DNA of 64,000 bases, taken from Raineyella fluvialis (lineage in GTDB: Bacteria > Actinomycetota > Actinomycetes > Propionibacteriales > Propionibacteriaceae). Where the stretch lies: the NCBI RefSeq assembly GCF_009646095.1, contig NZ_CP045725.1, positions 1,860,001 through 1,924,000 on the forward strand. The letters are read 5' to 3'. Of the stretch, positions 48,817 to 50,919 are shown piece after piece. How positions within the stretch are numbered: the first letter of the stretch is position 1; every line of letters starts with the position of its first letter. Both the position numbers and the translations under genes were made by a program. A model generated the notes under the pieces. The model worked only from the letters and a program-made list of their open reading frames with translations, did not search any database and was not told the origin of the DNA.

Positions 48817-50247
48817 TCACCGGGCCAGCGCGTGCCGCAATGCGGCCGTCAGGTCGGGCTGCTCGAACCGGAAGCCGGCCGCCTCCAGCCTGGCCGCCGA
48901 CACCCGCTGGTCGGTGTGCACCAACTCCTCCGCGCCCTCCTTGCCCAGGAGGAGGCGGGGCCCGAAAGCCGGGGTCGGGACCAGGGACGGCCGGTGCAGC
49001 ACGTGGCCGAGTTGCGTCGCGAAGGCCCCGGCCGTCACCGGGGCCGGGGCCACCGCGTTGAACACGCCCGACCAGGTCGGATCGAGGACCGCCTGGGCGT
49101 AGATCCGCGCCATGTCGTCGAGGCCGATCCAGCTCAGCACCGCCTGCGGACGGGTCAGCCGGCCTCCCGCCCCGGCGAGGAAGAGCGGCAGCTGCAGACC
49201 CAGGGCGCCGGCGGAGGCGGTCAGGACGATGCCGGTCCGCAGCATCACCCGGCGGATCCCCGCATCCTCCGCCCGCTCCGACGCGGCCTCCCAGCGCCGG
49301 ACGACATCGGCGAGGAAGTCCTGCCCGGTCGCCGAGTCCTCCTCGAGCAGCTCGCCGGGACGCCTCGCCCCGTACACGCCGATCGCGCTGGCCTGCACCA
49401 GTGTCGACGGCCCCTCACCGGCCCGCCGCGCGGCCACCATCGCCTTCGCCAGGGTCGTGGTCGCGTCGAGACGCGACCAGAGGATCTCGTGCTTCGCCTG
49501 CTCGCTGAACCGTCCCCCGATGGAGCGGCCGGCGAGGTTCACCACCGCCTCGACCCCGGCCAGCTGGGCCGGGTCCAGGTCACCGAGGTCCGGTGCCCAG
49601 CTGATCTCGTCCGCTGCCCGGGCGGGGCGACGGACCAGCCGTCGCACGGTGTGCCCGCCGTTCGCGAGCAGTGCGCACAGCTGGGTGCCGATCGTGCCGG
49701 AGGCTCCCGACACCACCACCACCCGAGGGGTCGCTGACTCGGGCAGGCGTGCCTGGAGGGCGAGGTCGCCGCGGAGCTGGTCCTCACGGAACCGGAACAA
49801 CCCCTCCAGGTACTGACGCACCCGGTGCTCGCCCAGCGGCCCGAGCGCCGCCGGCAGCTCGTACGTCACCCGATCGGTGACACGGGTGCCGCCCTCGGGA
49901 GTGTCCTCGAAGATGTGCTCGTGGCGCCAGCTGCGCAACGGGCCACTCACCTGCTCGTCGACGAAGAGGGCCCCGGGCTCGTATGCGGTGTGCTCGACCA
50001 GCCAGCGCAGACCGGGAGCCGTACGGATGGGGGCGGGCATCGTCTTGCCCGGCCACAGGGCCGCCACGACGGGGGAGGAGATCCGCAGGGCCCGCCGGGA
50101 GCCGACCCGGATCCCGTCACTCGGGCCATCGACGGTGACGATCGTTCCCGGAGGACTCAGCCGGACGAAGGCGCCCGGACGCTCGTGCCAGGCGAAGACC
50201 TCCTCCCGGGGGTGGGGATAGGTGGCGGTGTGCTCGAAGATGGTCAC
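48817..50247 (-). CDS. SRPBCC (polyketide cyclase-like) - TIGR01777 epimerase fusion
   Basis: 476 residues, two domains. Residues 1-~160 are a START/SRPBCC hydrophobic-ligand fold (FEHTATYPHPREEVFAWHERPGAFVRLSPPG). Residues ~170-476 are an SDR-type epimerase of the YfcH/TIGR01777 group with VVVSGASGTIGTQLCALL as nucleotide motif and AIGVYGARRPGELLEED. This fusion is common in actinobacteria; its substrate is unknown. GTG start at 50247 with GAGAGG 7 bases upstream. Convergent with the HhH-GPD gene (30-base gap). Confidence 0.87.
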   Translation of the reverse strand: MTIFEHTATYPHPREEVFAWHERPGAFVRLSPPGTIVTVDGPSDGIRVGSRRALRISSPVVAALWPGKTMPAPIRTAPGLRWLVEHTAYEPGALFVDEQVSGPLRSWRHEHIFEDTPEGGTRVTDRVTYELPAALGPLGEHRVRQYLEGLFRFREDQLRGDLALQARLPESATPRVVVVSGASGTIGTQLCALLANGGHTVRRLVRRPARAADEISWAPDLGDLDPAQLAGVEAVVNLAGRSIGGRFSEQAKHEILWSRLDATTTLAKAMVAARRAGEGPSTLVQASAIGVYGARRPGELLEEDSATGQDFLADVVRRWEAASERAEDAGIRRVMLRTGIVLTASAGALGLQLPLFLAGAGGRLTRPQAVLSWIGLDDMARIYAQAVLDPTWSGVFNAVAPAPVTAGAFATQLGHVLHRPSLVPTPAFGPRLLLGKEGAEELVHTDQRVSAARLEAAGFRFEQPDLTAALRHALAR

Positions 50248-50382
50248 GATCCAACCTCTCCTGGGGCCCTGTTGCCATCGGTGTGTCACCATCATGCGTC
50301 GCCGGTCGACGATGGGACCAGCGTGAGGGCCGTTGCGCTGTGGTGGCGGTCACGTACGAGTCCAGTGTGCTCGCCCGGCGGT

Positions 50383-50919
50383 TCAGAGCAGGGAGGACTC
50401 CCAGTCGAGTAGCGCCTCCTTGAGGTCCTCGCGCCCTCCGTAGCCGCCGAGGGAACCGTCGGCCCGCACCACCCGGTGGACCGGGAGGATCCAGGAGACA
50501 CGGGTCGCGGCGCACGCATTCGCGGCGGCGCGGGCCCCACGGGGCGCCCCGGCGAGGCGGGCGAGCTCTCCGTAGCTGATCCGCTGCCCGAACCGGGTCT
50601 CACGGATCGCCTGCCAACAGAGCCGATGGAAATCGGCTCCCGGCTGTTCGACGGCCAGGCCATCGAAGGCGGTCCGGTCACCCTCGAGGTGACGGAGCAC
50701 TGCGGATCGTACGATGCCCGGCCCATCGTCGCGCACCGGAGTGACGGCCGCCCGGCCGGTCAGACCGGTCAAACCGGTCAGGTCGTCCAGGCCGGCGAGG
50801 ACCTCGGCGACCGGACCGAAACCTGCTGCGCGCACAGTGGGGCGCTCCTCACCCGTCCACGCCACGACGAACCCGCCGAACGGCGTGGTCAGTTCGGTCC
50901 ACCGTGCCCGCTCACCCAC
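50383..50919 (-). CDS. Alkyltransferase-like protein: MGMT homologue with PVHR instead of PCHR
   Basis: 178 residues from a GTG at 50919. It has the whole DNA-binding half of O6-alkylguanine transferases: RISYGELARLAGAPRGARAAANAC (about 113-136, including the Arg finger position) and the terminal GGYGGREDLKEALLDWE. The catalytic cysteine is replaced by valine: the motif reads ILPVHRVV with Val147, encoded GTC, and the hinge Asn before it is replaced too. It therefore cannot transfer alkyl groups and resembles ATL proteins (normally PWHR), which bind lesions and flag them for excision repair. The intact homologue is at 26374-26889. TACGCT 6 bases before the GTG indicates a leaderless start. 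Confidence 0.85.
   Translation of the reverse strand: MGERARWTELTTPFGGFVVAWTGEERPTVRAAGFGPVAEVLAGLDDLTGLTGLTGRAAVTPVRDDGPGIVRSAVLRHLEGDRTAFDGLAVEQPGADFHRLCWQAIRETRFGQRISYGELARLAGAPRGARAAANACAATRVSWILPVHRVVRADGSLGGYGGREDLKEALLDWESSLL

Follow-up and report, generated by a model that had tools for sequence, protein, structure and literature searches.

The 64 000 nucleotide stretch of the Raineyella fluvialis genome analysed here (the window; contig NZ_CP045725.1) encodes a homologue of the O6-alkylguanine transferases (AGT/MGMT) in which valine occupies the position of the catalytic cysteine, so that the usual motif PCHR reads PVHR. On the evidence of sequence and phylogeny, this protein is like the alkyltransferase-like proteins (ATLs) by anatomy, but it is no ATL by descent. 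We propose, giving the idea about an even chance, that it is a catalytically dead AGT of independent origin that works like an ATL and flags O6-alkylguanine for nucleotide excision repair (NER).

The PVHR gene is an uninterrupted frame coding for a full-length AGT/MGMT homologue, and its sequence contains AATRVSWILPVHRVVRADGSLGGYGG (table 1). The start of the protein lines up with the MDERLRW/MDGLRW starts of its orthologues. It scores 81.9 bits against Pfam PF01035 (cut-off 27) and 72.4 bits against TIGR00589 (cut-off 46.4), and is an AGT/MGMT homologue by both models; annotation based on such family models would label the gene an active methyltransferase. A search for promoters and terminators gave no match.

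Table 1. Features of the PVHR locus and its paralogue in the window.
Feature	Position	Strand	Remarks
PVHR AGT homologue	50383..50919	minus	178 aa; GTG start at 50919, TGA stop
C-terminal DNA-binding/active-site domain	50395..50634	minus	residues 96-175, PF01035
Val147 codon GTC, catalytic cysteine position (human Cys145)	50479..50481	minus	
Thr139, asparagine-hinge position (human Asn137)	50503..50505	minus	
TIGR01777-family oxidoreductase	48817..50295	minus	87 bp gap, downstream of the PVHR gene
HhH-GPD-type base excision repair protein, TIGR03252	48214..48786	plus	two genes from the PVHR gene
PCHR paralogue P0003, 171 aa	26374..26889	minus	sister of the PVHR clade; 41% identical to the PVHR protein

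An earlier reading of this DNA, made from the sequence only, had reported the motif ILPVHRVV, a valine codon (GTC) too far from TGC for a simple read error, and a second, intact PCHR copy. All three points are confirmed. The motif is in frame, GTC is two changes from TGC, and the PCHR copy is the paralogue P0003. The same GTC codon is found in all three PVHR genes, the two others being syntenic orthologues from congeneric genomes. A sequencing error is excluded by these orthologues together with the dN/dS ratios given below.

The same reading held that the helix-turn-helix (HTH), the arginine finger and the C-terminal part of the transferases are retained, and the HTH, the flipping tyrosine and the arginine finger are indeed conserved. 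The residues kept (human numbering in brackets) are Y116 (Y114), R130 (R128), H148 (H146), Y160 (Y158) and E174 (E172), with the roles of base-flipping tyrosine, arginine finger, histidine, active-site tyrosine and glutamate. The nucleophilic cysteine is absent, with no new cysteine beside the site, and the asparagine hinge that precedes the motif is also gone. The other cysteines of the protein are C101 and C136.

The departures of the three PVHR proteins were scored against 57 AGT rows. The two strongest fixed changes are at the hinge, where threonine replaces an asparagine found in 57 of 57 AGTs, and at Val147, where 56 of the 57 rows have cysteine. R163 is likewise fixed in the trio (glycine in 55/57), and weaker fixed departures were detected at positions 77, 105 and 128. 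The hinge is also missing in all six ATL rows compared, which have a gap or leucine, in agreement with a review describing ATLs without an asparagine hinge (PMC10779285). At human position 160 the PVHR proteins have glycine (Gly162 in the protein described here), whereas all 25 other members of their clade have Tyr, Phe, Trp or Ser. In Ada, a bulky residue (Trp) at this position reportedly keeps large lesions out (PMC10779285), and the PVHR pocket may accept larger lesions. However, R163 replaces the conserved glycine next to this position, so that a plain widening of the pocket may be too simple a reading.

Orthologues of the PVHR gene are present in two of the three congeneric genomes (G001 and G003), with 71 and 74% identity. 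Their common gene order is the HhH-GPD protein, the TIGR01777 oxidoreductase, the PVHR gene and then further shared genes. In the fourth species of the genus (G002), the PVHR gene and the orthologue of P0003 are both missing; the neighbours are present and the local gene order is rearranged. Ratios of dN/dS were estimated by the Nei–Gojobori method for the three species. In the C-terminal domain they are 0.12-0.17 for the PVHR gene, no higher than those of the PCHR paralogue (0.11-0.22); in the N-terminal domain they are 0.30-0.49, versus 0.14-0.23 for P0003. These values indicate that the DNA-binding and base-holding part is maintained by strong purifying selection with the valine in place. 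Lone decay is ruled out by the syntenic orthologues and the C-terminal ratios: both the valine and the threonine recur in three species under purifying selection.

The gene neighbourhood was considered as a functional clue and rejected. The oxidoreductase is a conserved neighbour of the PVHR gene and carries no indication of a repair role. The TIGR03252–TIGR01777 pair also occurs in G002, which is devoid of the PVHR gene, and the neighbourhood therefore says little about PVHR function. The TIGR03252 protein itself scores 286 bits.

The distribution of the PVHR form was analysed with a DNA pattern in which the remainder of the motif is read in frame with a catalytic codon whose first base is anything but T. 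This pattern recovers 50 of the approximately 60 AGTs known and may therefore overlook rare forms; with it, only the three PVHR genes were matched in 198 genomes of the taxonomic family, that is, in three of the four species of one genus and nowhere else in these genomes. The scan of 394 genomes of the class adds one true AGT with PGHR and two chance matches. The PGHR protein (L057, G507:C1:1807361-1807407, minus strand) is an otherwise canonical AGT from one genome of another family of the class. There are no matches in plasmids (at E 1e-15) or in viral contigs, and only weak ones in phages. A protein scan of genome contigs returned four relatives, none with PVHR, and a literature search found no mention of PVHR alkyltransferases. 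PVHR homologues exist in two congeners; among the genomes searched, the form is confined to one genus.

In the maximum-likelihood tree of 66 proteins, the three PVHR proteins form a single clade (100/99), and the P0003 orthologues are its sister group, with joint support of 99/98. Both sit within an AGT clade found across the taxonomic family (100/99). The classical ATLs, among them E. coli YbaZ and CWWRV/PWWRV proteins of the family, form a separate clade (100/99). The nearer as well as the outer AGT relatives carry cysteine; the valine is therefore derived. Descent of the protein from the ATL family was rejected on the grounds that it nests within the AGTs, apart from the ATL clade. The earlier suggestion of a Val-variant ATL subgroup stands as regards the lost cysteine and the lesion-binding residues kept, not as regards ancestry, the protein being an AGT paralogue.

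Structure and domain composition were compared as well. The PVHR protein has, like ATLs, a replaced cysteine in the active-site motif, no asparagine hinge, and a conserved HTH, arginine finger and flipping tyrosine; its N-terminal half aligns with that of the paralogue. Its C-terminal domain scores 63 bits with Ada and 26 bits with Atl1. The predicted model is of moderate quality (mean pLDDT 66.8, built from six sequences; 73-94 in the C-terminal blocks). Its alignment to two-domain AGT structures, including AGT–DNA, spans the whole length, with Z values reaching 17.1; that to the Atl1–DNA structure (Z 11.2) covers the C-terminal domain.

Classical short ATLs are encoded by 146 of 197 genomes of the family (111 of the 141 of good quality). 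Those of the family (L072/L082, L083-L086) read CWWRV or PWWRV, tryptophan replacing also the histidine of PCHR. G002 encodes one reading CWWRV (L072/L082, G002:C13:49139-49465). In the present genome (G000) and in G001 and G003, a PF01035 search, a direct search with the G002 protein and a profile failed to detect a classical ATL. Within the genus, PVHR proteins and classical ATLs are thus mutually exclusive, in four genomes and probably through one evolutionary event. This exclusivity suggests that PVHR replaced the classical ATL. Many ATL-less genomes of the family are also without the PVHR gene, which is therefore no required substitute.

The AGT content of the genus is variable. The third AGT of the genome, a PCHR protein (L001, G000:C1:2361206-2361442), lies outside the window. 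Its neighbours are two frames, one similar to DNA-3-methyladenine glycosylase I and the other sigma-factor-like (similarity judged by eye), and the group is possibly an alkylation-repair cluster. According to the tree, the third AGT of G003 (L067, G003:C1:131526-131765) is not an orthologue of the third AGT of G000 and G001, which indicates fast turnover of AGT content in the genus.

We suggest the following course of events. A duplicate of an AGT would have lost both the nucleophile, through a change of Cys to Val, and the asparagine hinge, through a change of Asn to Thr, and would have retained DNA binding, the flipping of O6-alkylguanine and its holding in the pocket. Such a protein would be unable to alkylate itself, and binding of the lesion would therefore not use it up. 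The lesion-bound protein might then recruit or license NER through UvrA, as ATLs do, and may have taken over from the missing short ATL in the genus. Lesion binding, the absence of transfer activity and the hand-over to NER are predicted from the residues kept and lost and by analogy with ATLs; the interaction with UvrA is presumed from that analogy. The genome encodes a full-length UvrA. A second UvrA-like sequence (G000:C1:3632856-3635119) is split over two open frames of 377 and 585 aa; it may reflect a frameshift or represent a diverged paralogue.

In the main rival explanation, the protein is a dead AGT that assists or regulates the active ones; it would bind lesions or join AGT clusters and present, shield or regulate PCHR repair without NER. 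All three species with the PVHR gene also have P0003, the fourth has neither, and cooperative clustering of AGTs on DNA has been reported (PMC10779285). However, the N-terminal domain, the reported mediator of clustering, evolves faster in PVHR than in P0003, and we consider this explanation unlikely. Recruitment of the DNA-binding protein to another task, for example as a regulator or as a binder of another flipped base, would fit the conserved HTH domain and the conservation of the adjacent oxidoreductase gene, which has the same orientation; it is improbable given that the arginine finger, the flipping tyrosine and the equivalents of Tyr158 and Glu172, all serving O6-alkylguanine, are kept.

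An enzyme decaying towards a pseudogene could account for the longer stem branch of the PVHR clade, the relaxed N-terminal domain and the absence of the gene from one congener. This explanation is largely refuted, and very improbable, as the gene is intact and syntenic in three species, with the identities and C-terminal ratios given above and with shared valine and threonine. It is scarcely credible that the protein is still an alkyltransferase with another acceptor residue: C101 and C136 exist, but neither is at the active-site motif, C136 is common in PCHR-bearing Ada-type AGTs and C101 is shared with P0003, and the asparagine hinge is lost too.

A broader reading of the proposed ATL-like sensor is more tentative, and we regard it as possible rather than probable: that this is a second, independent origin of ATL function, in which a two-domain AGT, after duplication, turned into a lesion sensor without the cysteine, replaced the ancestral ATL in one genus, and converged with it on the loss of nucleophile and asparagine hinge. 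If true, a suicide repair enzyme can become a lesion sensor in a few steps, for which the fixed replacements of Asn by Thr, Cys by Val and Gly by Arg are the candidates. A Trp-to-Cys change in the E. coli ATL is reported not to restore activity (PMC10779285), so that other residues separating AGTs from ATLs are still in question. The recent PVHR/PCHR split within one genome provides a cleaner pair for asking which they are.

Among known systems, the Ada C-terminal-type and Ogt AGTs, especially P0003, share with the PVHR protein the fold, both domains, the HTH, the arginine finger, the flipping tyrosine and the active-site Tyr and Glu. Unlike them, it has neither the catalytic cysteine nor the asparagine hinge, and has Gly for an aromatic residue at human position 160 and Arg for Gly at 161. 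The ATLs (E. coli YbaZ/eATL, S. pombe Atl1 and the short CWWRV/PWWRV proteins of the family) are similar to it in the absence of the cysteine and the hinge and in the flipping residues kept. Most ATLs have Trp at the cysteine position, and described ATLs have no N-terminal domain (PMC10779285). The PVHR protein, in contrast, has valine, possesses that domain and belongs to a different clade; it also keeps the C-terminal end of AGTs, without the C-terminal extension of ATL type. The Thermus thermophilus ATL TTHA1564 carries alanine at the cysteine position. This Cys-less homologue is annotated as an ATL (PMC7216122). The Sulfolobus AGT mutants C119L and C119F (PDB 4zyh, 5llq) show that the fold can accommodate hydrophobic side chains in place of the catalytic cysteine; these are laboratory mutants, whereas PVHR is a natural protein.
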